Below are positions 4,280-47,636 of a DNA stretch of 64,000 bases, in pieces. Numbering within the stretch: position 1 is the stretch's first letter; the number at the start of each line of letters is the position of its first letter. Position numbers and translations under genes: made by a program. The notes under the pieces were generated by a model. The model was not told the DNA's origin and ran no database searches. It saw only the letters and a program-made list of their open reading frames with translations. Source of the DNA: an uncultured Eubacteriales bacterium (GTDB lineage: Bacteria; Bacillota; Clostridia; Peptostreptococcales; Anaerovoracaceae); NCBI GenBank assembly GCA_902786855.1, contig CADAEH010000007.1:1-64000 (forward strand). The letters run 5' to 3'.

Positions 4280-4289
4280 GAGGAACACC

Positions 4290-5159: not shown

Positions 5160-5184
5160 CAGATGTTGTTAAGAGAGGTGCAAC

Positions 5185-5877: not shown

Positions 5878-5915
5878 ACAGCCGCAGCAAATAAATAGGT
5901 AAAGTTGGTGATGAT

Positions 5916-8217: not shown

Positions 8218-8220
8218 GCT

Positions 8221-9495: not shown

Positions 9496-9522
9496 AAGGA
9501 AATTGAAAAGGAGAAACTATCA

Positions 9523-31299: not shown

Positions 31300-31449
31300 A
31301 TGAAGAAACTGAACGAAGAATACTTCAGGGACTGGAATTACAAGAAGCATGCGAAATTCTGCACACTGGTGTATGCAGGACTCTATGCATTTGACATGAC
31401 AGTCTCATACTTTATCATCAAAAAACTGTTTAAAAAATGGAATATATGA
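31300..31449 (+). CDS. small single-span membrane protein
   Basis: A 49-residue frame from ATG 31300 to TGA 31449, preceded by AGAGGGGAG about nine bases upstream. A basic N-terminus (MKKLNEEYFRDWNYKKHAKF) is followed by one hydrophobic segment (about 21-40) and a KKLFKKW tail, a pattern expected of a small membrane peptide. Its end overlaps the start of the leucine-rich protein by 13 bases, so it would be the first gene of cassette 1. I do not recognise it. A membrane anchor for the cassette would be an inference. Confidence 0.5.
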   Translation: MKKLNEEYFRDWNYKKHAKFCTLVYAGLYAFDMTVSYFIIKKLFKKWNI

Positions 31450-32744
31450 CGGATATATCTGACATCATGGAACATGAGGATACCGGTAACGGTTCTTATG
31501 TCGTGATTCCTGAATATGTGACTGAGATAGAAGACGGAGCATTCGCAAAAGACAAGAGCCTGAAAAAGATAGATCTTAATAATGTGAGACGTATCGGAGC
31601 TCACGCTTTTCAGGAATGCACTGATCTTGAATCAGTCATCATGAGTAATGTCACCGAGATCGGACCGGGAGCGTTTGAATTCTGCCGTTCACTTCGCAGT
31701 ATAACGTTTGAAAATATCACATCTGTAGGAGATGAAGCATTCATGAACTGCAGTATGCTTGATATTCCGGAAATGCCCTGCTCCCTGACACAAGTCGGGG
31801 CCGGCGCTTTTTCACATACTGCTATACGCTCCGTCGATCTGCACTGGCTTGATGAGATACCCGCATCACTGCTCAGCTACTGCACATCGCTTACAGACGC
31901 GGATATAGTAGGCGCGAAGGTGATCGGAAACGATGCTTTTGCCGGATGCAGAGCACTGTCAGAAGTGAGACTCGGCGAGCTGGAAAAGATCGGTAAAGGT
32001 GCTTTCCAGAAGTGCGACGCTTTTGAGCTTGTGCGTCTGCCTGATACACTCAGGTATATTGGAGATGACGCTTTCAGTGTTATTCGTGGCGGTCTTATCA
32101 TACCGGGAAGTGTCAGCTGCATAGGAAAGGACTGTCTTGGACCGGTCGACAGGAAGAAGGAGATCAGGATATACAGATCATCTCTGTATGAATTCCGGAA
32201 TTACTTCAGAGATGATCGGGCAGATCCTTTTGATGAAGACGAGCACTTTTATCTGTGGGAGAGTTCTATCGATGTCACTGTTCTGGATGAACAGACGGGC
32301 GAGACAATAGGGTTTCTGCCACTGTACTCTGACCTCGAGCGTCAGCTGCGAAAAGAGCTGACAGAAGCTTTCCGTCCGGATAACACATTTGATTATTCGT
32401 TCCTTGATGAGGTGCTGTTCTCAGGGCTTAAATGGAACCAGAGGTGCAAGGACCGACATGCGGTCATGCGCCTCAGTCATCCTTTTGAACTGACGCGATC
32501 TGCGCGTGAGGAGTATATCGCTTATCTGGAAAAACACCTTAAGCGGATAGTCCGGCGTGCTGTCCATAACAGAGATGTCGATATGCTCATATTTTTGTGT
32601 GATGTCGGACTGATAGGAAAAGAAAACATCACAGATGTGATCGATCACTCTATCTCGATGTCAGCATCTGAATGCACAGCTTTTCTGCTTGAACGCCAGT
32701 CGGAACTTGGCTGCAGCAGTGATCCGCTGCTCGATGAACTATGA
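31437..32744 (+). CDS. leucine-rich repeat (BspA-type) protein of cassette 1
   Basis: A 435-residue protein without signal peptide, hence probably cytosolic. Residues about 15-235 form LRR_5/BspA-type repeats (pattern IGAHAFQECTDLESV, IGKGAFQKCDAFELV, with GAF/AF-C cores). The C-terminal 150 residues are a separate helical domain that ends like the C-terminus of the shorter LRR protein at 45487-46173. Its stop overlaps the VWA gene (ATGA), so it is part of that complex by context. A start at 31446 (second Met) is possible. LRR blocks usually mediate protein-protein contacts. Confidence 0.85.
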   Translation: MEYMTDISDIMEHEDTGNGSYVVIPEYVTEIEDGAFAKDKSLKKIDLNNVRRIGAHAFQECTDLESVIMSNVTEIGPGAFEFCRSLRSITFENITSVGDEAFMNCSMLDIPEMPCSLTQVGAGAFSHTAIRSVDLHWLDEIPASLLSYCTSLTDADIVGAKVIGNDAFAGCRALSEVRLGELEKIGKGAFQKCDAFELVRLPDTLRYIGDDAFSVIRGGLIIPGSVSCIGKDCLGPVDRKKEIRIYRSSLYEFRNYFRDDRADPFDEDEHFYLWESSIDVTVLDEQTGETIGFLPLYSDLERQLRKELTEAFRPDNTFDYSFLDEVLFSGLKWNQRCKDRHAVMRLSHPFELTRSAREEYIAYLEKHLKRIVRRAVHNRDVDMLIFLCDVGLIGKENITDVIDHSISMSASECTAFLLERQSELGCSSDPLLDEL

Positions 32745-34159
32745 CAGAAAAAGAAGAACTAGACATACTTATCAATAAAGCTGCATTGGATGTGCTTACG
32801 CTTGCGCGCAATACGCTGCTCGTCAAGTTCCGTTTTCTCGATGCGGCACTTAACAGGCTGCAGCCGGCTGCTTCCGAAGACGCAACATTCTCAACTGACG
32901 GTGTACATCTTACTTACGGGCCAAAACATGTGCTGAAGCGATTCAAAAGTGACCGTGATGAGCCGGCGTGTGATTTTCTTCATATAGTGCTCCACTGTAT
33001 ATTCAGCCACATGTTCATAGGAGACTCGATCGACCGGGAGCTGTGGGACCTTGCATGTGACGTAGCAACAGAGAACATAATAAATGATCTCGGTCTGCGG
33101 GATCCGAGGTCTGCGAGGTATGTAGCCCAGATGGCGGAAACAGACAGGCTCAGGGAAGAGATAAGAACACTTACTGCAGAGAAGATATACCGCTTTTACA
33201 GGGAAGCGGGAATTCCCGGCTACGAGATAGAGCGGCTCGGCAGACTGTTTCATACAGATGATCACTCAGGATGGTATGGATCAAAACCTGACCACCGTGA
33301 TTTCAATGAAGATGCTGACCATGGCAAAGACAGAGAACCCGAACATGCAGCTGAACCATATGAACAGGCAGGTGACGACAACCGTGAAGCGGATGACAAA
33401 CGAAGCATGCCGATGGACGATATAGAAGAAGAGTGGAAAAAGATCGCCGAAATGATACAGGAAGATCTGGAGACATTCTCAAGAGAACAGGGCGATAATG
33501 CAGGCGGGCTGATCCAGAATCTGAATGCGGTCACTCGCGACAGATATGATTATACGAATTTTCTTAAGAAGTTTGCCGTGCAGGGAGAGACCTTGTGCGT
33601 CAATGACGAGGAGTTTGACTACATTTTCTATACATATGGTTTGAAGCTGTATGGAAACATGCCTCTCGTGGAGCCTCTTGAATACAAAGAGGTCCGGCGG
33701 ATCAGAGAATTCGTGATCGCGGTCGACACATCGGGAAGCACATCGGGCGATCTGGTGCAGGCATTCCTGCGAAAGACTTATAACATTCTCAAATCGACTG
33801 AGAGTTACTTTTCTCATGTCAACGTTCATATAATACAGTGTGATGCTGCCATACAGGAACATGTCAGAATAAGTTCGGAAGAGGAATTCGACAGCTACAT
33901 CAGCACTATGAGTATTCGTGGCCTGGGCGGCACCGACTTCCGACCGGTATTCGACCTTGTAGACAGCCTGATAGAAGACGGTGAATTCACAGACCTCAGA
34001 GGCTTGCTTTATTTCACGGACGGACGAGGTACATATCCGGCACGCAGGCCGGGGTACGAAACAGCATTCGTATTCCTTGACAATGAGTACAACCAGCCGG
34101 AAGTGCCTCCATGGGCAATCAGACTCGTTTTACAGGACGAAGACATATACAGATCATAA
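32741..34159 (+). CDS. VWA-like/DUF2201 protein of cassette 1
   Basis: A 472-residue protein with an N-terminal DUF2201 region and a C-terminal von Willebrand A domain. In the first part, FLHIVLHCIFSH places histidines at 81, 85 and 90, like the putative metallopeptidase helix of this family but with Ile where HExxH has Glu. DLACDVATENIINDL follows. A charged insert lies at about 183-225. The VWA domain has the MIDAS motif DTSGS (329-333) and GLGGTDFRPVF. MoxR ATPases and VWA proteins work as pairs, and the ATPase is encoded 37 bases downstream. It probably acts in the cytosol with that ATPase. Confidence 0.85.
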   Translation: MTEKEELDILINKAALDVLTLARNTLLVKFRFLDAALNRLQPAASEDATFSTDGVHLTYGPKHVLKRFKSDRDEPACDFLHIVLHCIFSHMFIGDSIDRELWDLACDVATENIINDLGLRDPRSARYVAQMAETDRLREEIRTLTAEKIYRFYREAGIPGYEIERLGRLFHTDDHSGWYGSKPDHRDFNEDADHGKDREPEHAAEPYEQAGDDNREADDKRSMPMDDIEEEWKKIAEMIQEDLETFSREQGDNAGGLIQNLNAVTRDRYDYTNFLKKFAVQGETLCVNDEEFDYIFYTYGLKLYGNMPLVEPLEYKEVRRIREFVIAVDTSGSTSGDLVQAFLRKTYNILKSTESYFSHVNVHIIQCDAAIQEHVRISSEEEFDSYISTMSIRGLGGTDFRPVFDLVDSLIEDGEFTDLRGLLYFTDGRGTYPARRPGYETAFVFLDNEYNQPEVPPWAIRLVLQDEDIYRS

Positions 34160-34196
34160 AGCCATTAAGCAGCACGATTCGAAGGAGAGAACCGAC

Positions 34197-35708
34197 GTGA
34201 ATATCAAAGACGCAAAGGAACAGATCAGGAACGCGATCATAGCATACTTTACAAGGGACGAGTATGGGGAATATCGGATCGCCATAGAGGACCAGAGACC
34301 TGTCTTTCTTATGGGCCCTCCGGGCATCGGCAAGACAGCTATCATGCAGCAGATAGCATCCGAGCTCGGTGTCGGACTGGTATCATATTCCATGACACAT
34401 CATACCCGGCAGTCTGCACTCGGCCTGCCGTATATTAAGACCAAAAATTACGGAGGCAAAGAATACAGCGTTTCCGAGTATACCATGTCGGAGATCATAG
34501 CATCGGTCTATGACATGATGGAAGAGACCGGAGTCCGTGAGGGCATATTGTTCCTTGACGAGATAAACTGTGTATCCGAGACTCTCACACCATCGATGCT
34601 GCAGTTCCTTCAGTTCAAGACTTTTGGCAGACATCGTGTCCCGGATGGCTGGATAGTCGTCACTGCAGGTAATCCCCCGGAATATAACAGTTCCGTACGT
34701 GAATTCGATACTGTAACATGGGACCGTCTTAAACGCATAGACATCGAGCCTGATTATGCGATATGGAAAGAGTACGCTCTTGACCGCGGTGTGCATCCTT
34801 CTGTCTCGACGTATCTGGATATCAAGAGCAATGATTTTTACAGAGTGGAAACAACTGTAGACGGAAAGACCATCGTGACGGCAAGGGCATGGCTGAACCT
34901 TTCAGACATGATCAGCCTCTACGAACAGAACGATATCGCTGTCGATGAAAAGATGATAGGACAGTATCTTCAGGATCCTAAGGTCGCGAAGTCTTTTGCC
35001 AACTACTATGACCTGTTCAACAAATACAGATCAGACTATCAGATCGATGATATCCTGAGCGGTAAGGCCGGTGAAGATATAATCAGACGGGCTAGGGATG
35101 CGAAGTATGACGAGAGACTGTCCCTTCTCGGTCTGATCCTTGACAGGGTCGGCAGCGATCTCAAAAAGATATGGCACGAAGAGCAGGTCCTCACAGAAGA
35201 GATGGAACTGTTTAAATCAATAAGGGGCAAGCTTGAGAACGGCCCGGCATCCGTTTCTGAGCTGCTTGACGAAGCAGCTGCGTTGAAGCGCAGCGAGCTT
35301 GATAACCTTAAGAAGTCAAGATCTCTGTCTGATGACAGGAGAAAAACTCTGCATGGGATCATAAAGGATCTTGAGTCCGATGCAAAAGAGCTTGCACTTG
35401 CAGGTGATCTGGCGGGGGATGAAGCATTCGGTATCATAAGAAAGAACTTCAACAGCAGAAGAGCTGCTTACAGGAAACACATTGAAGAAACTGACGCGGA
35501 ACTCGAGAATATGTTCATCTTCGCGGAAAAGGCTTTCTCTGATTCTCAGGAGATGCTTATAATCGTGACGGAACTGACCAAGGGCTTTTACTCCGCGCAT
35601 TACATAAGCAGACATGGATGCAGGAAGTATTTTGAGCACAACAGAGAATTGCTGTTTTACGAAAGACAGAACGAGATCCTTCAGAGGATAGAAGACATCG
35701 ATCTGTGA
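34197..35708 (+). CDS. MoxR-type AAA+ ATPase of cassette 1
   Basis: A 503-residue AAA+ ATPase. Walker A is GPPGIGKT (40-47), Walker B ILFLDEI (117-123), the sensor segment VVTAGNPPEYN and the arginine-bearing WDRLKRIDIEPD. About 240 residues of mostly helical, coiled sequence follow the ATPase core, absent from simple MoxR proteins. The GTG at 34197 is chosen because GAAGGAGAG lies eight bases upstream and the N-terminus (MNIKDAKEQI) then matches the paralogue at 46170 (MNIAEAKEQL). With the VWA protein it should form a chelatase- or remodelling-type machine; the target is unknown. Confidence 0.9.
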   Translation: MNIKDAKEQIRNAIIAYFTRDEYGEYRIAIEDQRPVFLMGPPGIGKTAIMQQIASELGVGLVSYSMTHHTRQSALGLPYIKTKNYGGKEYSVSEYTMSEIIASVYDMMEETGVREGILFLDEINCVSETLTPSMLQFLQFKTFGRHRVPDGWIVVTAGNPPEYNSSVREFDTVTWDRLKRIDIEPDYAIWKEYALDRGVHPSVSTYLDIKSNDFYRVETTVDGKTIVTARAWLNLSDMISLYEQNDIAVDEKMIGQYLQDPKVAKSFANYYDLFNKYRSDYQIDDILSGKAGEDIIRRARDAKYDERLSLLGLILDRVGSDLKKIWHEEQVLTEEMELFKSIRGKLENGPASVSELLDEAAALKRSELDNLKKSRSLSDDRRKTLHGIIKDLESDAKELALAGDLAGDEAFGIIRKNFNSRRAAYRKHIEETDAELENMFIFAEKAFSDSQEMLIIVTELTKGFYSAHYISRHGCRKYFEHNRELLFYERQNEILQRIEDIDL

Positions 35709-35742
35709 TCAAAAAACAATCAATAAAGAGGTGGAGAATAAT

Positions 35743-36480
35743 ATGAAGATCATTATTTGCGGTAAAGGGGGCTGCGGTAAAAGTACTACAGCGGCTTTGC
35801 TGGCAAAAGCTTATCAGAGGGAAGGGCGGAATGTACTTGTGGTCGATTCCGACGAGTCAAATTACGGTCTCTACAGACAGCTGGGACTGGACCTTCCTGA
35901 GGATTTCACACATTACTTCGGTGGAAAGAAGGGCGCATATCGCGTATTTGACGACAAAGGCTATGTGTTTGATGAAAAGTGGAATATCTCTGATATACCC
36001 CGGGAATTCCTTACGGGAGACGGGAACCTGCATCTTATGGCCATCGGCAAGATCGCCGAGGCGGAAGAAGGATGCGCCTGCGGCATGGGCTTCACCGCAA
36101 AGATGCTCCTCGATAATCTTGAGACAGGAGAAAATGATGTTGTTATAGTTGACACAGAAGCCGGTGTCGAGCACTTCGGAAGAGGACTCGACAGGTTTGC
36201 AGATGTTATCCTGATGGTGATAGACCCGTCATACGAGTCCATACGCCTTTCTGAGAAAGTATATGATATGGCACAGGCTCTTGATAAGCCTGTATACTTC
36301 ATACTGAACAAAGCTGATGCAGAGCAGGCCGAAATAACAAAAGCGGCCCTGAGGGATAAAGAAGCAGTAGTTGCGGTAGTACCTGCTGATCAGCAGATAA
36401 TGATGGCGGGACTCAGGGGCGAAGCCCTGGATATTGAGATACCGGCGATAAATGCTGTTATGGACAGGATAAAAAAATGA
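35743..36480 (+). CDS. CooC/NifH-like P-loop ATPase
   Basis: A 245-residue ATPase of the SIMIBI (MinD/NifH/CooC) class. The deviant Walker A GKGGCGKST (7-15) opens it. The switch region VDTEAGVEHFGRG matches CooC, and a CAC motif (Cys111, Cys113) in EEGCACGMG lies where CooC dimers bind metal. CooC inserts nickel into carbon monoxide dehydrogenase. No CODH gene is in the window, so the client is unknown. The ATG at 35743 follows AGGTGGAG; a GTG four codons earlier lies in that site. It comes 34 bases after the MoxR gene and overlaps the glycosylase gene by four bases. Confidence 0.85.
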   Translation: MKIIICGKGGCGKSTTAALLAKAYQREGRNVLVVDSDESNYGLYRQLGLDLPEDFTHYFGGKKGAYRVFDDKGYVFDEKWNISDIPREFLTGDGNLHLMAIGKIAEAEEGCACGMGFTAKMLLDNLETGENDVVIVDTEAGVEHFGRGLDRFADVILMVIDPSYESIRLSEKVYDMAQALDKPVYFILNKADAEQAEITKAALRDKEAVVAVVPADQQIMMAGLRGEALDIEIPAINAVMDRIKK

Positions 36481-36968
36481 ATACAGTCTTATACCATCCG
36501 TTCGGACCGTTATATAATAAAAAGAGCCGGGTGCTTATCCTCGGTTCATTTCCGTCCGTGAAATCAAGAGAACAGAACTTTTTCTACGGACATCCTCAGA
36601 ACAGGTTCTGGAAAGTGATCGCGGCTGTATATGAGCAGCCTCTGCCGCAGACCATAGAAGAGAAAAAGCAGCTTATACTGGATAACGGACTTGCCCTGTG
36701 GGATTCGATCGCAAGCTGCGAGATAACAGGTTCTTCTGACTCCAGCATAAAGAATGCACGTGCGAATGATATCACAGTGATTCTGGACAGCTGCAATATA
36801 GAGAGGATCTACTGCAATGGGCGGAAGTCACATGAACTATATCGTAAATACATAGAGCCGGCGACAGGACGTACGGCTGTATGTCTGCCATCGACCAGCC
36901 CTGCCAACGCTCAGTGGTCACTTGAAAAACTGATCGGAGCATGGGCAGAGATCAGAGCAGACATATGA
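36477..36968 (+). CDS. DNA-deoxyinosine glycosylase (uracil-DNA glycosylase superfamily)
   Basis: A 163-residue base-excision repair enzyme of the uracil-DNA glycosylase superfamily, DNA-deoxyinosine glycosylase group. The active-site strand reads RVLILGSFPSVKSREQNFFYGHPQNRFW, with the usual GSFPS and FYGHPQNRFW, and the C-terminal motif is CLPSTSPANAQW (SPAN box). It would remove hypoxanthine arising from adenine deamination. ATGA overlap with the CooC-like gene couples their translation, though a functional link is not evident. Confidence 0.9.
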   Translation: MNTVLYHPFGPLYNKKSRVLILGSFPSVKSREQNFFYGHPQNRFWKVIAAVYEQPLPQTIEEKKQLILDNGLALWDSIASCEITGSSDSSIKNARANDITVILDSCNIERIYCNGRKSHELYRKYIEPATGRTAVCLPSTSPANAQWSLEKLIGAWAEIRADI

Positions 36969-37002
36969 TCAATCAGCACAAAGAAAGGATGAGGTGAACA
37001 AA

Positions 37003-37344
37003 ATGGTAAGAAAAGAAACAGCACAGGAACGTCATGAAGTACAGGGCGGCGTGGGCACAATCATGAGCTATCACGTGATCACAAAGGAAGAATTTCTGGG
37101 ACACGGAAGGCTATATTCCCGCTTTGTACTGCCTCCGGGGACATCGATCGGATGGCATGTCCACACAGGCGAGACCGAGCCATACTACATCCTTGCAGGC
37201 GAAGGCACTTTTACCGACAGTGACGGCAGTGTTCATCTGGTACACAAAGGTGACTGCTGCATAATCGAACCGGGAACAGGTCATTCCATCGCCAACAACG
37301 GAGATGAGGATCTTGAGTTCATGGCACTCATTTATAACGCATAG
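37003..37344 (+). CDS. single-domain cupin protein
   Basis: A 113-residue cupin. The first motif is WHVHTGETEPYYILAGEGTFTD, with metal ligands His, His and Glu, and the second GDCCIIEPGTGHSIANNGDEDLEF contributes the last His. Single-domain cupins are dioxygenases, isomerases or sugar/metabolite-binding proteins; no assignment is possible. AGGTG six bases ahead supports ATG 37003 over a GTG three codons upstream. It lies 34 bases after the glycosylase and probably ends the cassette 1 transcript, given a small hairpin with TTTT at 37412-37431. Confidence 0.85.
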   Translation: MVRKETAQERHEVQGGVGTIMSYHVITKEEFLGHGRLYSRFVLPPGTSIGWHVHTGETEPYYILAGEGTFTDSDGSVHLVHKGDCCIIEPGTGHSIANNGDEDLEFMALIYNA

Positions 37345-37411
37345 TAGTGCAGAGCCGTTATGCCGTTGCAATGAAACAGGTCATAATGGATAATATAGAC
37401 AAATAAAATAC

Positions 37412-37431
37412 CTGATCAGATGATCAGTTTT
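37412..37431 (+). terminator. weak terminator-like hairpin
   Basis: CTGATC/GATCAG around AGAT followed by TTTT, between the cupin and lipoprotein genes and just before the latter's AGGAG. A six-base AT-containing stem is marginal for termination. Confidence 0.3.
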
Positions 37432-37444
37432 CAGGAGCAGATCG

Positions 37445-38311
37445 ATGAAAATGAATAAGACGTACAACAGAGCAATGCGCATTGCAGTCCTTGTGATGCT
37501 TTCCGTTTTACTGATTGCGATGACTTCATGCAGCAAGCCAGAGTTCAAGATGAGTGAGAACACAGGAAAGCTGATGGTAGTTGAAGCTAAGAATGCCGCC
37601 GTTGACTCAATGTTTATGGTAGGCAGTCTGGAGGTAGATACAGGAGAGCAGGTCGTATTGACTTCAAACCTTGAAAAAGGTTCTGTAAAAATAGAACTGT
37701 TCGGCACACCTGAAGAGCAGTCTGCAGATGAGGTACCGGAACTGGATGGCGAACCGGATGTTATGTTCAATGCAGGGCCAGATGATATGCAGGCGCATAC
37801 TCTTACACCCGGAACCTATATGCTCAAGGCAACTGTTATAGAGAAGGCTACCGGATCAGTGACTGTAGAAGTGAAGCAGGCAGATCCTGAGCAGTGGAAT
37901 ACAGCGGAGTCGCCTGACGATGCCGGGGAAAAAGCCGGAATCGGTCTTTTCCTTATAGATCCGAGCGGGCTTAGCCTCGGACCTGTTACTAATGCAGATT
38001 TCCAATATATGGAGGGTGTTGCAGAGGCTCATTTCGGAGTTGCTGCTGTTGACATTTATGTACGTAAAGGCCTTTCGGATATCGACGAAGGAGATATATC
38101 TTTCGATAACAACGAATACAAATACAACTGGACAGTGGATATTGACGGAACCGAAGTAAAGTGCAGCGGAAACCGTGAAGGAGAAGCTACCAAGTCTGTC
38201 TGGAGCGCAAACGATTACAGCTATGCTGTACTTGCATACGGCGCGGGCGGGGACGATGATTTCGGCCTCAGCGAGGAAGACCTCACTTCATTGTTCAGGA
38301 ATATCCAGTAA
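37445..38311 (+). CDS. putative lipoprotein
   Basis: A 288-residue protein with a lipoprotein signal peptide: a basic start, hydrophobic core and AMTSC with the lipidation cysteine at about residue 29. The mature part has no cysteine cluster or catalytic motif that I recognise. It contains beta-strand-like repeats, an acidic linker around 150-165 and a C-terminal domain with GGDDDFGLSEED. It is expected to be anchored outside the cytoplasmic membrane. AGGAG seven bases before the ATG supports the start. The MmcQ-MGMT fusion gene follows 21 bases later. Confidence 0.75.
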   Translation: MKMNKTYNRAMRIAVLVMLSVLLIAMTSCSKPEFKMSENTGKLMVVEAKNAAVDSMFMVGSLEVDTGEQVVLTSNLEKGSVKIELFGTPEEQSADEVPELDGEPDVMFNAGPDDMQAHTLTPGTYMLKATVIEKATGSVTVEVKQADPEQWNTAESPDDAGEKAGIGLFLIDPSGLSLGPVTNADFQYMEGVAEAHFGVAAVDIYVRKGLSDIDEGDISFDNNEYKYNWTVDIDGTEVKCSGNREGEATKSVWSANDYSYAVLAYGAGGDDDFGLSEEDLTSLFRNIQ

Positions 38312-38332
38312 TATACAGACATAATATCAACT

Positions 38333-39328
38333 GTGACGATCGAGCAGAAAGTATTCAGTCGTAAACGCTTCAATACCGGCAGCATGGAAGACTATGGGTT
38401 TGAAAACAAAGGTTCCTGCCGTGTATTGTCGCGCGAATTCATGGGCGGTGACTTAACTGCAGAGATCAGAGTGTATGAAAACGGATCTGTGCAGGGCAGG
38501 GTACTTGATAACATGAGCGGCGAAGAGTATGTCCTTCTGAGGCTGCCGAATGCTTCCGGAGCTTATGTCGGAGCGGTGAGGGAGGCATATGAGGAACTTC
38601 TTAAGGATATAGCCCGCAGCTGCTGCACTGATGTCTCATTCGTTTCAGATCAGAGCAACCGTATAGCCGCATCTATCCTTGACAGGTATTCCGTGGAGCC
38701 GGATTTCCCATGGAACGAAGGAAAGTACAGTCCGGCAGGAGTGTTCAGGCACGGTGCCGGCGGTAAGTGGTTCGGGCTCATCATGAACATAGACAGACGC
38801 CTTCTTGATAAAAGTGCCGCTGAAGAAATGGTCGATGTCCTGAATCTCAAGGCTGATGAAAACAAGACTGCTTTACTGCATAAAATAAGAGGGATATATC
38901 CTGCTTATCATATGAATCACAGTAAGTGGATCTCGGTCGTGCTCGACGATACGCTCTATGATGAAGATGTCATGGGGCTCGTTGATGAAAGCTTTCGTCT
39001 GACATCTAAATCTGCAGGGGTACTGAATGAGAAGCTCATCAGGCAGGTATTTGCCGTAGCTGACAGTATCCCTCCCGGTCTGGTCATGTCATACGGGCAG
39101 ATAGCTGAGCTGCTCGGACGTCCCGGCAACTCGCGCCTCGTGGGCAGGATAATGAGCATGGCTGACAGATATGGTGACCATCCATGTCACAGAGTGGTCA
39201 ATCACGCCGGGCGGACTGTACCGGGGTGGACAGAACAGCGACAGCTTCTGGAAGCAGAGGGAGTTGAGTTCAAGTCCAACGGGAACGTAGATATGAGCAG
39301 ATTCCGATACGATCCCGGAAGATATTAG
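38333..39328 (+). CDS. MmcQ/YjbR - alkylguanine alkyltransferase fusion
   Basis: A 331-residue fusion. Residues about 1-220 match the MmcQ/YjbR family (start VFSRKRFNTGSMEDYGF, NGSVQGRVLDNMSGEEYVLLRLP, then SNRIAASILDRY and PDFPW, and KWFGLIMNIDR). Residues about 232-325 are a methylated-DNA cysteine methyltransferase domain (QVFAVADSIPPGLVMSYGQIAELLGRPGNSRLVG) with the acceptor cysteine intact in HPCHRVV (Cys285). MmcQ/YjbR proteins have a DNA-binding-like (CyaY-like) fold. The fusion suggests a DNA repair or alkyl-damage role. It starts at a GTG without a clear ribosome site, so the exact start is uncertain. Confidence 0.85.
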   Translation: MTIEQKVFSRKRFNTGSMEDYGFENKGSCRVLSREFMGGDLTAEIRVYENGSVQGRVLDNMSGEEYVLLRLPNASGAYVGAVREAYEELLKDIARSCCTDVSFVSDQSNRIAASILDRYSVEPDFPWNEGKYSPAGVFRHGAGGKWFGLIMNIDRRLLDKSAAEEMVDVLNLKADENKTALLHKIRGIYPAYHMNHSKWISVVLDDTLYDEDVMGLVDESFRLTSKSAGVLNEKLIRQVFAVADSIPPGLVMSYGQIAELLGRPGNSRLVGRIMSMADRYGDHPCHRVVNHAGRTVPGWTEQRQLLEAEGVEFKSNGNVDMSRFRYDPGRY

Positions 39329-39365
39329 CAGCGTTTCATACGGCTTTACGAATAGATCGATACTT

Positions 39366-40013: not shown

Positions 40014-40030
40014 CCAAAAGGAGGCGTTCG

Positions 40031-40840: not shown

Positions 40841-40862
40841 TACAGATTTCAGAAAAAAAGAT

Positions 40863-40895
40863 TGCGGGCTGTCATTACTGATGCCCGCAGTTTTA
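40863..40895. terminator. bidirectional terminator
   Basis: TGCGGGC (40863-40869) pairs with GCCCGCA (40883-40889), flanked by AAAAAAA on the left and TTTTAAGTTT on the right. It separates the lipid kinase gene from the convergent membrane-protein gene and works for both. Confidence 0.85.
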
Positions 40896-40898
40896 AGT

Positions 40899-41498
40899 TT
40901 AGCTTGGATCTTCGTCGTACAGATAGCTGTCATAGGCTTTTGCTATCGGCAGGTCCCGGAACGCCCGTACAGCAAGAATAGTTATAGCTATAGCCATTAT
41001 GGCAAGGATGATTGAGATAAGGAACATCCAGAGCAGGAAATCGGAACCGGCACCGGCACTGAATGATAAAATCATAAGGAAAAGTGCGGCAGCCCACAGC
41101 GTTAAGGCAAGAATGCCATATGCTATAAGCTGGGATCTGACGTTTTTGAGGGTAGGATGGACCAGATCGCGCAGCTGCAATATTTCTTCAGGATAATCAT
41201 CCGGTATGTCAAAAGCAGGATCGTCAATGGCGGCGCGGATCTGATCTGCTGCTTGAGATATATCCGCAGCTGCCGCCTCGTAATATCTCTTTGCGGCAAT
41301 GAATCCCAATGACCACAGCGCTACAATGATGGACTTTACGATAGATTTGCTGAGTATGAGCCCGAGAATACCCATAACGACGCACGCTATAGCCAGAACG
41401 ACATAGAGTTTTGCACATTTTGCGTGCATATCTCCATAACGCTCTACCTGCTCGAGAACGAAACGTTCATATTTATCGTCAGTTTTCTTATCTGTCAT
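40899..41498 (-). CDS. hypothetical membrane protein with two helix pairs
   Basis: A 199-residue protein I do not recognise. The charged N-terminus (MTDKKTDDKYERFVLEQVERYGDMH) leads to two hydrophobic helices (about 28-50 and 53-70), then an amphipathic stretch (about 70-115), then two more helices (about 120-145 and 150-175), ending in an acidic tail. It is probably a four-span cytoplasmic membrane protein. GGGGA before the ATG is a modest ribosome site. A small frame with a strong ribosome site lies just upstream. Confidence 0.65.
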   Translation of the reverse strand: MTDKKTDDKYERFVLEQVERYGDMHAKCAKLYVVLAIACVVMGILGLILSKSIVKSIIVALWSLGFIAAKRYYEAAAADISQAADQIRAAIDDPAFDIPDDYPEEILQLRDLVHPTLKNVRSQLIAYGILALTLWAAALFLMILSFSAGAGSDFLLWMFLISIILAIMAIAITILAVRAFRDLPIAKAYDSYLYDEDPS

Positions 41499-41515
41499 AT
41501 ATTATTCCCCGACTG

Positions 41516-41602
41516 CTAAAGCAGTTTTATTATTCGGTCTGCTGCTTCTTTCATGTGTTCATCTGAAAGACCGAAGTCAATCTCCCGGATCTGTAAGGTC
41601 AA
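41516..41602 (-). CDS. possible small peptide ahead of the membrane-protein gene
   Basis: A 28-residue frame with TTG start at 41602, a perfect AGGAGG ten bases upstream and stop at 41516, 17 bases before the next minus-strand gene. The product is an amphipathic helix-like peptide (IREIDFGLSDEHMKEAADRI, then IKLL). The frame is open a further 14 codons upstream without a start, so it could also be the last part of a decayed larger gene. Evidence is limited to the ribosome site and composition. Confidence 0.3.
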   Translation of the reverse strand: MTLQIREIDFGLSDEHMKEAADRIIKLL

Positions 41603-41729
41603 TGACCCGTATCCTCCTGTTTTCTCCGGAACAAAGCATCAATTAATTATATTCCTGCAAGTCCCCTATGTCACGCTTTCAAGATATATGGTAAAATCTT
41701 AAAGAAATGATAACAGAAGGGGGATCAAT

Positions 41730-43043
41730 ATGGAAAGCAAAGGAATGAACAACCACATAAAAGTTGGGATGCTGGGTATAGGAAACGTCGGAAGAGGTAC
41801 ATACCAGGCGCTCGAAATGAATCACGACAGGATACTTGAGACAACGGGATTCGATATAGAGATCACCCGCATACTCAACCGTCATCCGGATAAAGACCGC
41901 GGTATAGATATACCTAAGGAAAAATACACAGCAGATGTCAATGACATCTTTAACGATCCTGAGATCAGCATCGTAGTGGAGCTGATCGGAGGCATCGAGC
42001 CTGCTACAGAATATATGGCTGAAGCGATCAGGCACGGCAAGAGTGTCGTAACTGCAAACAAGGCAGCTCTGGCTGTTAACGGCAAGTATCTTGCCGAGCT
42101 GGCTCAGGAGCATCATGTTCTGCTCAGATTCGAGGCAGCAGTAGCGGGAGGCATCCCTATCCTGACATCACTTACGACTGCTCTTCTGTCGAACAGCTTT
42201 ACTGATGTACAGGGCATACTGAACGGCACTACGAATTACATACTCACTCAGATGAGCGAATACGGCAAGGATTATGCAGAGGTGCTTAAGGATGCACAGG
42301 CAAAGGGCTTCGCAGAGGCTGACCCTACAGCTGATGTCGAGGGCTTTGATGCTGCAAACAAGCTATCCATCCTGATTTCACTTGTGTTCGGTCTCGGAGT
42401 AGCTCCTGACAAGATCCCGACACAGGGCATCACAGCTATCGGCAGCGAGGACATCGCTTACGCCAAGGAGTCGGGATACAATATCAAACTGATCGCAAGC
42501 GCAAGGGAGAGAAACGGCAAAATGAACTGCAGCGTCAGCCCTGTGATGATGCCGCTGTCACATCCGCTCGCTTCTGTCAGCAATGAGTTCAATGCGGTAT
42601 TTGTTACCGGTAATGCTGTAGACAGCCTGATGTTCTACGGCAGAGGCGCCGGTCCGCTTCCTACCGGAAGTGCTGTGCTCGGTGATATCATCGGCATCGC
42701 GCGCAAGCAGGGTAAGGACTCAGCATACGATTTAGTACCTCAGCTCAGATATGACTCAGGTCTTGAGTATTCAGAAGAGAGCACGAGCAAGTTCTATGTG
42801 CGCATGACCGTGACTGAAAAGCCTGGCGTACTCGGCAAGATAACAACGATCTTCGGCAACGCCGGCATCAGTGTGGAAGCTATCCAGCAGAAGCCGCCTT
42901 ATGACAAGAACGGAGAGAGACTTGCAACTCTGATCTTCATACTGTTTGAGGTAGAGAGGATGCAGCTGATGAATGCTCTCGATGAAGTGCTCAAACTTGA
43001 TGTCACCAAATCGATAGATAACGTGATAAAAGTCGAAGAATAA
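41730..43043 (+). CDS. hom: homoserine dehydrogenase
   Basis: A 437-residue NAD(P)-dependent enzyme reducing aspartate semialdehyde to homoserine for threonine and methionine. Domains in order: Rossmann fold (GMLGIGNVGRGTYQAL, about 14), catalytic/dimer domain with LNGTTNYILTQM and AKGFAEADPTADVEGFDAANKL (catalytic Lys/Glu/Asp region), and a C-terminal ACT domain (about 355-430; VTEKPGVLGKITTIFGNAGIS) that usually mediates threonine feedback. AGAAGGGGGA fixes the ATG. It is monocistronic. No T-box or attenuator fits in the short upstream gap. Confidence 0.96.
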   Translation: MESKGMNNHIKVGMLGIGNVGRGTYQALEMNHDRILETTGFDIEITRILNRHPDKDRGIDIPKEKYTADVNDIFNDPEISIVVELIGGIEPATEYMAEAIRHGKSVVTANKAALAVNGKYLAELAQEHHVLLRFEAAVAGGIPILTSLTTALLSNSFTDVQGILNGTTNYILTQMSEYGKDYAEVLKDAQAKGFAEADPTADVEGFDAANKLSILISLVFGLGVAPDKIPTQGITAIGSEDIAYAKESGYNIKLIASARERNGKMNCSVSPVMMPLSHPLASVSNEFNAVFVTGNAVDSLMFYGRGAGPLPTGSAVLGDIIGIARKQGKDSAYDLVPQLRYDSGLEYSEESTSKFYVRMTVTEKPGVLGKITTIFGNAGISVEAIQQKPPYDKNGERLATLIFILFEVERMQLMNALDEVLKLDVTKSIDNVIKVEE

Positions 43044-43177
43044 CAAAAAAACCATTCTGCAACCACCGGTTGACAGATTGAAAAGCCTGATTGATAGAGT
43101 GCAACCGCCTGAAAGGGTAGATTAAGGGTGCAAAACAAAACAGACGCGGAAGCATTCACGATCAGGGAGGTAATAAA

Positions 43178-44173
43178 ATGATCTTAGCAGACAAGATAAT
43201 AGAGAACAGAAAGAAAAACGGCTGGTCACAGGAAGAGCTCGCTGACAAGCTCGGAGTATCCAGGCAGTCAGTATCAAAATGGGAAGGCGCTCAGGCAGTG
43301 CCTGATATGAAAAAGATAATCCAGATGTCCGAGATATTCGGAGTCAGCACAGACTACCTTCTTAAAGATGAGATAACGGTACCTGCACCAACCGAGTCTC
43401 TTCCGGTAGATCCGGGTACGACAGAAGACGAGGCAGTAAAAGTATCACTTGAGGAAGCAAGCGAGTTCCTTGAGTTCAATGAAAAGGCAGCGGGAACGGT
43501 ATCTACAGGAGTAATGCTCTGCATACTCTCACCGATAATCACGACCACCCTCGGCGGACTTGCGGATGCCGGAAAAGCACCTGTAAGTGAATACACAGCA
43601 GGGATCGGCGGAGTGATCATATTGATCCTTATGGTCGCTGCAGCCGTCGGTATGTTCCTGTATATTGGATTCAATGGTAAAAAATACGAATACCTTGAGA
43701 CTTCTAATATCGACACAGAGTATGGTGTGTCGGGCATGGTAAGAGAGCGTAAGGATGCATATGCATCTATCCACAGCAGATGGATGATCATCGGTATCAT
43801 GCTCTGCATCATTGCGGCTGTGCCACTGCTTATGATCGAGCTTCTCAGATGGGGACATGACGATGGATCTCTTGTCGCTGTCGGCACGGGTGTTATGCTC
43901 GCTGTTATTGCCGTCGGTGTCAAAATGATCGTAAAAACAAGCATACTCTGGGGAGGTATGGATAAGCTCCTCGAGGAAGGCGACTACACCCGACTCAACA
44001 AGAAAGCATCAAGGTATGACGGGATCTACTGGGCCATCGCTACTGCTGTATATCTCGGATGGAGTTTTATGAGCAACAGATGGGATATCACATGGCTCGT
44101 ATGGCCGGTCGCAGGAGTCCTGTTCGTGGCTTACCATGAGATCATGAGAGCCATATTCAGATCCAGACATTAA
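43178..44173 (+). CDS. XRE-family regulator with membrane domain
   Basis: A 331-residue protein. Residues 1-65 form a helix-turn-helix of the XRE/Cro type (WSQEELADKLGVSRQSVSKWEGAQAVPDM, then LSEIFGVSTDYLLKDE). A linker (about 66-110) follows, then about five hydrophobic helices (about 112-130, 142-165, 208-225, 235-255, 290-325). This is a common clostridial layout for a membrane-anchored repressor that may sense envelope stress or a ligand. TTGACA at about 43070 with GATAGA 17 bases on is a possible promoter. GGGAGG fixes the ATG. Cassette 2 begins 12 bases after its stop, so it may control it. Confidence 0.85.
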   Translation: MILADKIIENRKKNGWSQEELADKLGVSRQSVSKWEGAQAVPDMKKIIQMSEIFGVSTDYLLKDEITVPAPTESLPVDPGTTEDEAVKVSLEEASEFLEFNEKAAGTVSTGVMLCILSPIITTTLGGLADAGKAPVSEYTAGIGGVIILILMVAAAVGMFLYIGFNGKKYEYLETSNIDTEYGVSGMVRERKDAYASIHSRWMIIGIMLCIIAAVPLLMIELLRWGHDDGSLVAVGTGVMLAVIAVGVKMIVKTSILWGGMDKLLEEGDYTRLNKKASRYDGIYWAIATAVYLGWSFMSNRWDITWLVWPVAGVLFVAYHEIMRAIFRSRH

Positions 44174-44185
44174 AAATTATTGGCA

Positions 44186-45490
44186 ATGAACAATCTATCT
44201 GAGCGTGACAGACAAGCGGAAGAACTATCCCGGCAAATAATAACACTTGCATGCAACTCCATACTGGTGCATCTGAGGTTCATGGACCGTGCAGTCGGAA
44301 ATTTCAGTATCACTGCTGATATGAACTTCAGATTCGCCGGCGCAGCCGGACACCTTTATTACAGTCCCTGGAGCCTGATAAGCATGTACAGGGATGACCA
44401 GGATCTTGTCACCCGCAATCTTATGCACTGCATCCTGCACAGCATTTTCAGACACAGCATCGTAGGAAAAGGTATCGATCAGCTCAGATGGGATCTGGCA
44501 TGTGACATAGCAGTTGAAAACAGCATAAACGAACTGGAACAGGATTTTCTCAGGACGAAACGTGAGGCAGAGCAGGCTGAAGTGATCGATCATATCAAAA
44601 AACAGCTGCCCTGCCTTACTGCTGAGAGGATATACAGTTTCCTCATCAGCGATGAAGTCACATATGTTCAATGCTATGAATGGAGCGAACTTTTTAAGGG
44701 CGATGACCATGACCTGTGGTATGGCATCGAAAACGCAGAGTATACCATTCCGGTCGATGCTGATCTCGGGCAGCTATGGAAGGATATAGCCAAGAGGATG
44801 CAGACCGAGCTCGAGCTCTTCAGAAATGATGAGGGAGCTCTCACACAGAACCTCAGAGAGATCAACAGAGTAAGATACAATTATACGGAATTCCTCAAGC
44901 GATTCAGCATCCGCGCAGAGACCATGAGGCTGTCGGAAGAGGAATTTGATAACATATACTATTCATATGGTCTGGAGCTGTACGGAGACATCCCTCTGGT
45001 CGAACCTCTCGAGTACAGGGACAGCAGAAAGATCAGAGATTTTGTCATAGCCATAGATACATCCGGCAGCGTAGAAGGTGAGATCGTGCAGAAATTCGTG
45101 CAGCACACTCACGACATCCTCGCCGGGCAAAACAGTTTTGATACAAGAACTAATTTATATATACTGCAGTGCGATGACGATGTCAGGGATGCAGCACTTA
45201 TCACCTGCAGAGAAGATTTTGAAAACTACCTCAGCGGTATGGAAATAAAGGGACTCGGCCGTACGGATTTCCGGCCGGTGTTTGATTATGTGCAAAAATT
45301 GATAGATGACCACAAGCTCGATGAAATGCGCGGACTTTTGTATTTCACAGATGGTAAGGGGACGTTCCCTGCAGCAGCACCGGGTTATGACACGGCTTTC
45401 ATAATCCATAATGACAGTCTGATGGATGTATGGGTACCTGACTGGGCTATGAAGGTCGAGATGCCGTCAGGCGAGATAATGAACTTATGA
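44186..45490 (+). CDS. VWA-like/DUF2201 protein of cassette 2
   Basis: A 434-residue paralogue of the protein at 32741. The histidines in LMHCILHSIFRH again fall at 81, 85 and 90, again without the glutamate of HExxH. DLACDIAVENSINEL follows. The VWA MIDAS motif is DTSGS (291-295), with GLGRTDFRPVFDYV further on. It lacks the charged insert of cassette 1. No strong ribosome site precedes the ATG at 44186; a TTG two codons earlier is no better. The stop overlaps the next start (ATGA). By analogy with MoxR/VWA pairs it should work with the ATPase at 46170. Confidence 0.85.
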   Translation: MNNLSERDRQAEELSRQIITLACNSILVHLRFMDRAVGNFSITADMNFRFAGAAGHLYYSPWSLISMYRDDQDLVTRNLMHCILHSIFRHSIVGKGIDQLRWDLACDIAVENSINELEQDFLRTKREAEQAEVIDHIKKQLPCLTAERIYSFLISDEVTYVQCYEWSELFKGDDHDLWYGIENAEYTIPVDADLGQLWKDIAKRMQTELELFRNDEGALTQNLREINRVRYNYTEFLKRFSIRAETMRLSEEEFDNIYYSYGLELYGDIPLVEPLEYRDSRKIRDFVIAIDTSGSVEGEIVQKFVQHTHDILAGQNSFDTRTNLYILQCDDDVRDAALITCREDFENYLSGMEIKGLGRTDFRPVFDYVQKLIDDHKLDEMRGLLYFTDGKGTFPAAAPGYDTAFIIHNDSLMDVWVPDWAMKVEMPSGEIMNL

Positions 45491-46173
45491 GTGTATTGAC
45501 GATAGATCCGGCCAGGATACGGGACGGGCGTCTGATCGAAGGCGCGTATGCAGAGGATGAAAGCATCACCTCGGTCATCATTCCCGAAGGGGTGACTGAC
45601 ATAGGAGAGGTAGCTTTCTATGGTTGCAGAAATCTCAGGGAAGTCACTTTTCCTGCAGGTCTGAAATATATACGCGAAGAGGCATTCGGTGATTCTGCAG
45701 TCAGAGAAGTCATCCTGCACCCGGGTATGGCCCTGATAGAGGAAAAAGCATTCTTCAGCTGTGAGAGTCTGAAGAAGTTAGAGATACCGGACAGGAAAAC
45801 TGCTGTAGGCAGCGATGCTTTCGGCTGCTGCTATGATCTTTTCGAGGGGTATGTTGCGTGCGGGTTCCCTGAGAACGCAAAGCACCATGAAGAGCTGCAG
45901 TACACCCTGCTGTGGTGCTCGTGCCCGGAGAGACATGATGAAAAGACTTCGGCACGTGCCGCTGCATTCATCCGGGCTAATGAACAGCTGATAATGGAAT
46001 GGGTGATAGGCCGCGGCAATATACCGGCTATGAGCGGGATCGCGAGATATCAGCTGCTTGAAGGAAATATCGATGTATATATACAGCAGGCTAATCTCGC
46101 CGGCAGAAGCGAGATAACAGCTCTGCTTATGTCCATGGCCCGCCACAATGCGGAAGGAGAGTTTGATCTATGA
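45487..46173 (+). CDS. short leucine-rich repeat protein of cassette 2
   Basis: A 228-residue cytosolic protein. Residues about 18-115 are BspA-type leucine-rich repeats (VTDIGEVAFYGCRNLREVTFP, IEEKAFFSCESLKKLEIP). Residues about 130-228 form a helical domain that parallels the end of the larger LRR protein of cassette 1 (a cysteine-containing helix, then a D-x-x-I-x-x-A and TA-LL pattern). ATGA overlaps tie it to the VWA gene upstream and the MoxR gene downstream, so all three should be made in fixed ratio. The repeats probably recruit or cap the complex. Confidence 0.82.
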   Translation: MSVLTIDPARIRDGRLIEGAYAEDESITSVIIPEGVTDIGEVAFYGCRNLREVTFPAGLKYIREEAFGDSAVREVILHPGMALIEEKAFFSCESLKKLEIPDRKTAVGSDAFGCCYDLFEGYVACGFPENAKHHEELQYTLLWCSCPERHDEKTSARAAAFIRANEQLIMEWVIGRGNIPAMSGIARYQLLEGNIDVYIQQANLAGRSEITALLMSMARHNAEGEFDL

Positions 46174-47636
46174 ATATCGCTGAAGCTAAGGAGCAGCTAA
46201 CCAATACGATCAAGGCCTATTCGATGAAGGACCGATTCAGGAATTATGTGATGCCTGTACGTGACCAGCGCCCGCTTTTTCTGATGGGTCCTCCGGGAAT
46301 AGGCAAGACAGAGATAGTCATGCAGGTAGCAGAGGAGCTCGGTCTGGGTCTTGTAAGTTATTCTATTACCCATCATACCAGGCAGTCAGCGCTCGGCTTA
46401 CCCAAAATAGTACACAGGACATACGGTGACAGGGAGTACGATGTTTCCGAATATACCATGAGCGAGATCATTGCTTCCGTATATGATGTCATGGCAGATA
46501 CAGGCCTTAGAGAGGGGATCCTGTTCCTCGACGAGGTCAACTGTGTCTCAGAGACACTGACCCCGACAATGCTGCAGTTTCTCCAGTTCAAGACATTCGG
46601 AAAGCACAGGGTCCCTGACGGATGGATAATAGTCACAGCGGGAAATCCGGTTGAGTACAACCGCAACGCCAAGGAGTTCGATATCGTGACATGGGACAGG
46701 CTCAAGAGAGTCGATATCGAGCCTGACTATGAAGCATGGAAAGCATACGCATATCTTACAGGGGTCCATGCAAGTATACTGACTTACCTCGAGGCAAGGA
46801 GGGGCAGCTTTTATAAAGTAGAGGAAAGTGTCGACGGCAAAAAGTTCGTGACCGCAAGAGGATGGTCAGACCTGAGCGCCATCATAAGGATGTATGAAGA
46901 TCTGGACATCAAGGTCGACAGGAAACTGATCGGGCAGTATCTGCAGGATCCTGAGACCGCTGATGATTTTGCAGCATACTATGATCTTTTCAGAAAATAC
47001 AGATCAGACTATAAGCTTGAGGACATACTTTACGGTGCGGAGAGCGAAGATATCAGAGAGCGCGCTGCTGCGGCTCCATTTGATGAGAGACTCTCTCTTC
47101 TCGGACTGCTGCTGGGGATCATCAGAGAAGAGATCTCGGATGTGGTCAGGACGGAAGATATCGCTGCTGAGCTTGTCAAACTACTCAGGCAGGTCAAAGG
47201 CGGCGCGGATATAAATGAGGTCGCGGAACGGGAGGAAGAACTATATCATCGTTTCCTCAGGATGGGAGTTCTTTCGAAAGACGCCAGGAACAGATATGAG
47301 ACCGTTTTGGAATTCTTAAGAGGACATGCCGGGAGTGCGGATTTTGCCACGATCAAGTCCGACTACGATCAGATAGTATCGGAAATGAAAGCTTCTGCTG
47401 AAAAAGTGAGCAGGAGACTGGACAACCTGTTTGCTTTCGCAGAAAAAGTGTGGGGACAGGGCCAGGAGATGGTCATACTGGTCACCGAGCTGACGATAGG
47501 TTTCTACTCATCGAGATTCATAGCAAGATATGGATGCGATGCTTACTATAGAAATAATGAATCACTTAAGCTGTATGAGAGAAAACTTGAGATCCTGAAG
47601 AAAGGAGAGGAATTATGGCAGCAAAATACGATGTAG
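46170..47636 (+). CDS. MoxR-type AAA+ ATPase of cassette 2
   Basis: A 488-residue AAA+ ATPase closely similar to the one at 34197 over the first 230 residues: GPPGIGKT (40-47), a shared THHTRQSALGLP segment, EGILFLDEVNCVSETLTP (Walker B), VTAGNPVEYN and WDRLKRVDIEPD. The helical C-terminal half is more diverged but keeps the ending EMVILVTELTIGFYS. It starts by ATGA overlap with the LRR gene. Its last 22 bases overlap the flavoprotein gene, whose AAAGGAGAGG lies inside the ATPase coding sequence. Confidence 0.9.
   Translation: MNIAEAKEQLTNTIKAYSMKDRFRNYVMPVRDQRPLFLMGPPGIGKTEIVMQVAEELGLGLVSYSITHHTRQSALGLPKIVHRTYGDREYDVSEYTMSEIIASVYDVMADTGLREGILFLDEVNCVSETLTPTMLQFLQFKTFGKHRVPDGWIIVTAGNPVEYNRNAKEFDIVTWDRLKRVDIEPDYEAWKAYAYLTGVHASILTYLEARRGSFYKVEESVDGKKFVTARGWSDLSAIIRMYEDLDIKVDRKLIGQYLQDPETADDFAAYYDLFRKYRSDYKLEDILYGAESEDIRERAAAAPFDERLSLLGLLLGIIREEISDVVRTEDIAAELVKLLRQVKGGADINEVAEREEELYHRFLRMGVLSKDARNRYETVLEFLRGHAGSADFATIKSDYDQIVSEMKASAEKVSRRLDNLFAFAEKVWGQGQEMVILVTELTIGFYSSRFIARYGCDAYYRNNESLKLYERKLEILKKGEELWQQNTM

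Follow-up and report, generated by a model that had tools for sequence, protein, structure and literature searches.

A three-gene system of a MoxR-like ATPase, a VWA protein and a tailed leucine-rich-repeat protein in an uncultured Eubacteriales bacterium and its relatives

Introduction

A 64,000-nt stretch of DNA from an uncultured Eubacteriales bacterium of the Anaerovoracaceae (positions 1 to 64,000 of contig CADAEH010000007.1, assembly GCA_902786855.1; hereafter the window) carries two cassettes that each encode a MoxR-like AAA+ ATPase, a protein with a von Willebrand factor A (VWA) domain and a BspA-type leucine-rich-repeat (LRR) protein. To our knowledge, MoxR–VWA pairs are widespread and few have a known client. 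The locus raises the question of whether the LRR protein is part of the machine or merely stands beside it, and, if it is a part, on what the machine might act. The data presented here support a three-gene system well, and we put at roughly 0.5 the probability that its products act, by analogy with known pairs, as a ternary machine that remodels client enzymes, probably loading or reactivating their cofactors, with the LRR protein as the adaptor. A co-occurring third protein that probably reads the client would explain the specificity of such a machine and make the identity of the client testable.

The LRR gene travels with the VWA and ATPase genes

The original prediction, made from the window sequence alone, described the LRR protein as an obligate third component and held that the trio would be accidental if LRR genes were missing beside most homologous MoxR/VWA pairs. 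Homologous loci were collected by scanning contigs with both window VWA proteins, and the best 80 of 114 confirmed relatives were used, including loci from Mogibacterium, Oscillospiraceae, Lachnospiraceae and Peptococcaceae and one Eggerthellaceae record. Common to the LRR partners in this set is a C-terminal domain about 110 residues long, and a profile of this tail domain, built iteratively on the same loci, was used to call partners (E < 1e-5); it matches the LRR protein of cassette 1 (LRR 1) at residues 329-434 (E 3e-29) and that of cassette 2 (LRR 2) at residues 129-228 (E 9e-24). A partner adjoins the VWA gene in 65 of the 80 loci, in the order LRR-VWA-ATPase in 59 (four of them with no ATPase in reach), VWA-LRR-ATPase in five and VWA-ATPase-LRR in one. 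The 15 loci with no adjacent partner are L005 and L021, which lie at contig ends, L008-L011, L022, L026, L016, L017, L028, L030, L032, L038 and L077. In L021 there is a second copy, with a tail, in the opposite orientation; L022 and L026 have an ATPase gene and an LRR gene adjacent to each other elsewhere on the contig, one of them with a weak tail match and the other with one that falls short of significance; and L016, L017, L028 and L030 have an LRR partner about 5 kb upstream of the VWA gene.

A wider set of 102 inputs comprised the 80 loci, both cassettes of the window and 20 genome stretches; of these stretches, 18 were picked for carrying a cassette-type VWA gene and two for an ATPase gene (L013 and L156 represent one locus). 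It yielded 100 inputs with a VWA gene and 89 with both VWA and ATPase genes. Of the 89, 77 have a partner no more than 9 kb away, and the partners of L064 and L081, missed by the selection of open reading frames (ORFs), are also present, bringing the total to 79; two more, L005 and L021, are undecidable at their contig ends. The refuting condition of the original prediction therefore does not hold: the LRR protein is a regular and nearly obligate partner, but not a strictly obligate one.

The association is also seen between genomes. In a family sample of 99 genomes (cut-offs E <= 1e-60 for VWA and E <= 1e-5 for the tail), the VWA gene was found in 17, and the tail domain in 15 of those 17 versus none of the other 82 (Fisher 6e-16); as for the two exceptions, an LRR gene with a weak tail is adjacent in G074, and G022 has none in the stretch taken. 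In an order sample of 198 genomes (ATPase cut-off E <= 1e-80), the tail occurs in 13 of the 14 genomes with the ATPase versus 0 of 184 without it (Fisher 2e-19), G074 again being the exception, and the distance from the ATPase gene to the nearest tail is 0-2.5 kb, or 5.5 kb in a third cassette (cassette 3) of the bacterium's own genome. Five of 299 genomes in a phylum sample have the VWA gene (E <= 1e-40) and three have the tail, all within those five; G409 has a weak-tailed LRR gene adjoining the ATPase gene and G316 has none in the stretch taken. The three samples overlap and the genomes are related, so the p-values serve as a guide. At the cut-offs used, the tail domain was found in the sampled genomes only together with the ATPase or the VWA protein.

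The shared tail domain and the close co-occurrence speak against the LRR gene encoding an unrelated BspA surface protein that lies beside the MoxR/VWA pair by chance, and we regard that explanation as very improbable. LRR_5 genes are indeed common in the bacterium's own genome (about 14 frames, 33 matched stretches; the assembly is 87% complete), yet this genome has just three tail domains, one per cassette. On a tree of the 89 joined VWA and ATPase pairs (quick method, SH-aLRT support only, several long branches and joins flagged), gene order was altered at least seven times among three clear orders while the trio was kept. Furthermore, no 19-residue window with hydropathy above 1.6 was found in the first 60 residues of any of 65 partners, a search based on mechanical start sites and hydropathy only; the LRR protein is apparently cytosolic.

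The two window cassettes are paralogous and belong to separate groups

All six predicted ORFs of the window cassettes are present, with domains recognized by Pfam (Table 1), and their coordinates bear out the order LRR-VWA-ATPase in cassette 1 and VWA-LRR-ATPase in cassette 2. The ATPases (55% identity between cassettes) and the VWA proteins (42%) are paralogous, as proposed, and the LRR proteins are 33% identical. The claim that each cassette is tied by gene overlaps is correct for cassette 2, which has two overlaps of 4 nt, but in cassette 1 only the LRR and VWA genes overlap (4 nt), and a 37-nt gap with a ribosome-binding-like stretch separates the VWA gene from the ATPase gene. Likewise, motif positions are identical to the residue in the ATPases, which align without gaps up to about residue 347, and over residues 1-180 of the VWA proteins, but the metal ion-dependent adhesion site (MIDAS) is shifted because VWA 2 lacks most of the linker.

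On the tree, L004-L007 form a group with cassette 1, and L019, L031 and L015 form one with cassette 2 (SH-aLRT 100 for each); both fall inside one 13-row set (SH-aLRT 96), and cassette 3 falls outside it. Seven relatives that were searched have one to three matches each, on separate contigs. The window cassettes did not arise by recent tandem duplication; they may be old paralogues or transferred copies. The step from two diverged copies to two clients is not supported in that form: a third cassette is present in the genome, and the window cassettes are placed in separate groups with their own relatives.

Table 1. Features of the window and of related loci. Positions are those of the window unless a locus is named.
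Feature	Position	Strand	Remarks
LRR 1, BspA-type LRR_5 protein (435 aa)	31437..32744	+	C-terminal helical, weakly ankyrin-like tail ending ...LLDEL; LRR_5 E 1.2e-50
VWA 1 (472 aa)	32741..34159	+	DUF2201_N and DUF2201 above cut-off; motif columns
ATPase 1, MoxR-like AAA+ (503 aa)	34197..35708	+	GTG start; AAA_5 and AAA above cut-off
MinD/NUBPL-like P-loop ATPase	35731..36480	+	CbiA, ParA/NUBPL; 3' of cassette 1
DNA-deoxyinosine glycosylase	36477..36968	+	TIGR04274 137 bits vs 80, UDG; overlaps preceding gene by 4 nt
YjbR domain fused to methylguanine-methyltransferase DNA-binding domain (Ogt/YjbR)	38333-39328		
VWA 2 (434 aa)	44186..45490	+	DUF2201 and DUF2201_N above cut-off
LRR 2, LRR_5 protein (228 aa)	45487..46173	+	Same tail type, ending ...GEFDL; LRR_5 E 1.6e-21
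ATPase 2, MoxR-like AAA+ (488 aa)	46170..47636	+	AAA_5 and AAA above cut-off
CrtI-like NAD(P)/FAD oxidoreductase	47615..49153	+	NAD_binding_8, FAD_oxidored; candidate client of cassette 2
Flavin/NAD reductase carrying a 2Fe-2S ferredoxin domain at its C-terminus	49153..50361	+	FAD_binding_6, NAD_binding_1, Fer2; candidate client of cassette 2
Cassette 3, own genome	L109 (G000:C5:128000-146000), 1396-9934	-	Interrupted by genes for URO-D, a B12-binding protein and RACo; tetrapyrrole genes before
DNA_alkylation genes	L005:2985-3665, L006:9606-10463, L007:8926-9603, L077:12354-12935, L150:5998-6696		AlkD-type

Conserved features of the three proteins

The third components range from 228 to 1,177 residues in length, with a variable front and a constant tail. 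Pfam matched LRR_5 (BspA-type repeats) in 28 of 29 third components scanned, with no ankyrin family among the matches; the best PDB profile match of the tail is ankyrin 1n11 (E 9e-5), over 22 residues only. An AlphaFold2 (AF2) model of LRR 1 (pLDDT 87.9) predicts a solenoid to about residue 246, a mixed region, and helices at 302-434. The C-terminus has the form F/Y/D-D/E/A-L in 56 of 65 partners, versus 5 of 1499 other mechanically called ORFs of at least 150 aa, and the tail domain offers a sequence handle for finding further members of the system. Variants of the arrangement were seen: in L148 (G016:C12, 6913-11847) the order is LRR-VWA-LRR-ATPase, with two tail-bearing LRR genes flanking one VWA gene, and in L008-L011 and L115 VWA or ATPase genes are followed by LRR genes with no full tail, several of them in L010, L011 and L115.

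In the ATPases, GxPGxGKT, Glu122, Asn159 and Arg177 are kept in all 34 chosen rows and Asp121 in 33, a pattern that indicates an AAA+ core with Walker A, Walker B DE, sensor-1 Asn and, as the putative arginine finger, Arg177. We call these proteins MoxR-like because both window ATPases match AAA_5 (33.8 and 32 bits vs a cut-off of 22) and give a sub-threshold match to bpMoxR (26.1 and 20.1 bits vs 27); neither reaches PF07726 (AAA_3; 13.5 and 11.8 bits vs 27).

The MIDAS (DxSxS...T...D) is complete in 40 of 40 chosen VWA rows, and the same rows show no variation at His 81, 85 and 90, Cys 106, Asp 107 or Glu 111. The histidine pair of HExxH is likewise kept in all 40 but its catalytic Glu in none, which does not fit a DUF2201_N metallopeptidase; judging by these motifs, the N-domain is zincin-like with the catalytic glutamate lost. 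The AF2 model of VWA 1 (mean pLDDT 83.8) has an N-domain made up mainly of helices, a low-confidence linker rich in charge at about 181-224 and, directly before VWA strand 1, a strand (280-287), a helix (294-304) and a second strand (313-320) modelled at pLDDT of about 63-70. This predicted, low-confidence hairpin (280-320) is finger-like, and its spacing is similar to that of the NorD finger: it lies 78-118 residues ahead of MIDAS Thr398, and the NorD finger (403-448) lies 86-131 residues ahead of MIDAS Thr534 (accessible parts of PMC13036017 and PMC9976466). The VWA proteins of L160, L161 and L162 are larger, about 780-800 aa, with some 300 residues separating the N-domain from the VWA domain. 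A small gene lies directly 5' of the VWA gene in L029 (1665-2066) and L038 (5454-5954); that of L029, placed between the LRR and VWA genes, is DUF3783.

A proposed motor, coupler and adaptor

In NorQD, as described in the accessible part of PMC13036017, the finger of the VWA protein inserts into the pore of the AAA+ protein, and a rotation powered by ATP has been proposed as the way in which the target is remodelled. Because of the analogy with this pair, we read the trio as motor, coupler and adaptor, and infer that the three products form a complex. The MoxR-like AAA+ ring would be the motor, and the VWA protein, with its dead zincin-like N-domain, finger-like hairpin and MIDAS VWA domain, would couple the ring to its target. 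The joining of a variable front to a constant tail suggests the adaptor role of the LRR protein: the solenoid would bind the client, and the tail, ending x-L-COOH, would dock the protein to the VWA–AAA pair, perhaps with the C-terminal carboxylate or the penultimate acid as MIDAS ligand, or with the tail as a grip for the ring. ATP hydrolysis would then remodel the client such that a bound cofactor is inserted, loaded or reactivated, as would be expected by analogy with NorQD, CbbQO and CoxDE (for CoxDE maturation as a precedent, see the accessible part of PMC3471820).

Gene contexts suggest that clients may be specific to each paralogue. Genes were compared across 107 loci and the window, some records overlapping. 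In five of five genomes (the window, L019/L169, L031/L168, L167 and L015; seven records among the 107 loci and window), a cassette of the cassette 2 type is followed by genes for a FAD oxidoreductase and a flavin/2Fe-2S reductase, the first of which overlaps the end of the ATPase 2 gene by 22 nt in the window (NCBIfam carotenoid-desaturase-type models score far below cut-off for its product). L167 and L168 have a second, divergent copy of this oxidoreductase pair on the other side of the cassette. These two enzymes are candidate clients of cassette 2, for which the context would suggest activation of a flavin/2Fe-2S enzyme pair.

Cassette 3, on the minus strand of L109, follows genes for ALAD, a fused porphobilinogen deaminase/TP-methylase/HemD protein, a TP-methylase, ABC-type proteins (by eye) and NAD_binding_7, and itself runs VWA, ATPase, URO-D, B12-binding protein, RACo, URO-D and LRR–tail. 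In L165, from a relative, ALAD, porphobilinogen deaminase, HemD/TP-methylase, TP-methylase and NAD_binding_7 genes precede the VWA and ATPase genes, with a CobB/CobQ-type gene further on, and the contig ends after the ATPase gene; the cassette 3 type lies 3' of tetrapyrrole genes in two of two long contigs. L139 reads VWA, ATPase, LRR–tail, DUF1638, URO-D, B12-binding protein, a second URO-D (by similarity) and RACo, and in L142 RACo lies directly 5' of the VWA gene. Eight genomes were searched for RACo: the own genome and G046 have one match each, both in the cassette neighbourhood (between the ATPase and LRR genes of cassette 3, and abutting the VWA gene, respectively), G090 has two, one of them in the cassette neighbourhood, and four had no match. 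Judging by this context, cassette 3 may perform an activation step in B12-dependent methyl transfer, with the corrinoid methyltransferase/RACo set as the candidate client of cassette 3. Other enzymes of this general kind also occur beside cassettes: L140 reads VWA, ATPase and LRR–tail followed by a sulfite-reductase-type set, three molybdenum (Mo)-hydroxylase subunit genes stand directly 5' of VWA, LRR–tail and ATPase in L145, and in L024 a Mo-hydroxylase subunit gene adjoins the ATPase gene on the opposite strand. We also suggest, tentatively, that the cassettes are plug-in activators, found mainly in Clostridia, in which a conserved motor pair takes exchangeable LRR client readers with a common x-L-COOH handle, and of which one paralogue performs ATP-driven loading or reactivation of corrinoid methyltransferases beside RACo.

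Several observations weigh against a cofactor-directed ternary machine. The third gene is missing in eight of the 89 VWA and ATPase loci (L016, L017, L028, L032, L038, L077, L149 and L159). The penultimate residue is Ala in 11 of 65 tails, which weakens the simple idea of a MIDAS ligand. The single RACo gene of G105, the remaining genome searched, is far from its cassette, and the joint chance of the first three RACo placements (about 8e-6) is a post hoc estimate on a case-driven choice. Counts of such neighbours are low (RACo 3, corrinoid protein 3, Mo subunit 2 and sulfite reductase 1 among the 107 loci and window), and no common enzyme was seen in the large Oscillibacter-type group among the 35 recurring neighbour clusters, of which three are the cassette genes themselves and the remainder were annotated in part. 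Finally, genes for DNA base repair recur beside cassettes, as described below.

A rival reading is a general chaperone of large complexes, similar to RavA–ViaA, that has no dedicated cofactor role and whose neighbours are incidental: the majority of loci have no common enzyme neighbour, and the contexts are mixed (redox, corrin and DNA repair). Such a chaperone would not, however, explain why the cassette 2 type keeps the same two oxidoreductases in all five genomes, why the cassette 3 type follows tetrapyrrole genes in both long contigs, or why RACo and corrinoid genes lie inside the run of the own genome, and we consider it possible but doubtful. Alternatively, the VWA N-domain could itself carry a metal that is delivered to the client, as in a metallochaperone or a metal chelatase. 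The invariance of His 81, 85 and 90, Asp 107 and Glu 111 despite the lost catalytic Glu, together with the position of cassette 3 at the end of corrin/tetrapyrrole genes, is consistent with this possibility; but the FAD oxidoreductase beside cassette 2 requires no metal insertion, and a large chelatase subunit was not noticed among the neighbours scanned or read, making metal delivery unlikely.

DNA repair and other neighbours of cassette 1

Cassettes 2 and 3 have neighbours that could be clients, whereas the neighbours of cassette 1 belong to DNA repair and no client can be named for it; neither cassette 1 nor most Oscillibacter-type loci have a candidate client enzyme in the gene run. The MinD/NUBPL-like ATPase gene that follows cassette 1 has no homologue in the 107 other loci at E 1e-10 and is probably not part of the system. 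A 49-aa ORF with a hydrophobic stretch (31300-31449) overlaps the start of LRR 1 by 13 nt and had no homologue in the other loci compared.

Conceivably, cassette 1 and some relatives act on an alkylation-repair protein, a glycosylase or a DNA-bound complex as their client. By raw counts over the 107 loci and the window, AlkD-type DNA_alkylation genes lie beside cassettes in five loci (L005, L006, L007, L077 and L150) that represent three lineages of the tree, the window and L005-L007 have an Ogt/YjbR gene near the cassette 1 type (L012 gives an Ogt-like match), and the deoxyinosine glycosylase of the window has a homologue (L157:12241-12723) located 16 nt 3' of an LRR gene. These are, however, three different families (5, 5 and 2 records), most loci have none of them, and a separate explanation would have to be found for the association with corrin and redox operons, so a DNA base repair machine appears quite improbable. 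The recurrence of these neighbours did lead us to lower our estimate for the cofactor-directed machine from 0.55 to 0.5 and to hold the plug-in and RACo proposal slightly more tentatively.

Relation to known MoxR–VWA systems

Our literature search found no described MoxR–VWA system with an LRR–tail member; MoxR–VWA systems with a third component are already known, and the LRR–tail version looks little described. Like NorQ–NorD and CbbQ–CbbO, as far as the accessible parts of the sources describe these, the cassettes combine a MoxR-like AAA+ protein with a MIDAS VWA protein, and a hairpin is predicted before the VWA core with NorD-like spacing; unlike them, the cassettes add an LRR–tail protein, and the VWA N-domain is DUF2201_N-like. 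The AAA+ and VWA genes beside Mo-hydroxylase genes at L145 and L024 recall CoxD–CoxE of Mo/Cu CO dehydrogenase maturation, in so far as its source was accessible, but the machine type described here also stands by corrinoid, flavin and siroheme-type enzymes. We know of no LRR partner of CoxD–CoxE.

A further possibility is that the cassettes are ternary conflict systems (anti-phage or cell-death) of the kind described by Kaur et al. 2020, in which case the LRR protein would sense invaders. The accessible part of PMC7159879 describes the same plan of MoxR, vWA and a distinct, conserved, system-specific third gene; the bpMoxR matches, although sub-threshold, and the patchy distribution (17 of 99 family genomes) also point in this direction. 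The third components described in the accessible parts of PMC7159879 and PMC8195603 are, however, VMAP, iSTAND, FtsH, beta-propeller, iSTAND2 and TERNS3, whereas that of the cassettes is an LRR–tail protein; the accessible part of PMC7159879 names no LRR third component and places its systems mainly in multicellular lineages, whereas the cassettes are found mostly in Clostridia. In the window cassettes only LRR, DUF2201 and AAA families are above the Pfam cut-off, with Pfam coverage of the described third components unverified, and no effector domain was matched on the VWA proteins by Pfam. PADLOC yielded nothing beyond partial matches to AAA, the strongest of them to IetA (E 1e-6, about 57 residues), and several contexts are metabolic. 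Together, these data make a conflict system rather unlikely.

The own genome also encodes a separate AAA_3/DUF2201 pair (L110, G000:C1:330000-345000, 4966-7361), with no LRR or tail match in its 15-kb stretch. As in the cassettes, a DUF2201-type VWA gene adjoins an AAA+ ATPase gene; unlike in the cassettes, HEIMH is intact in the VWA protein of this pair, and the ATPase gives a match to PF07726.

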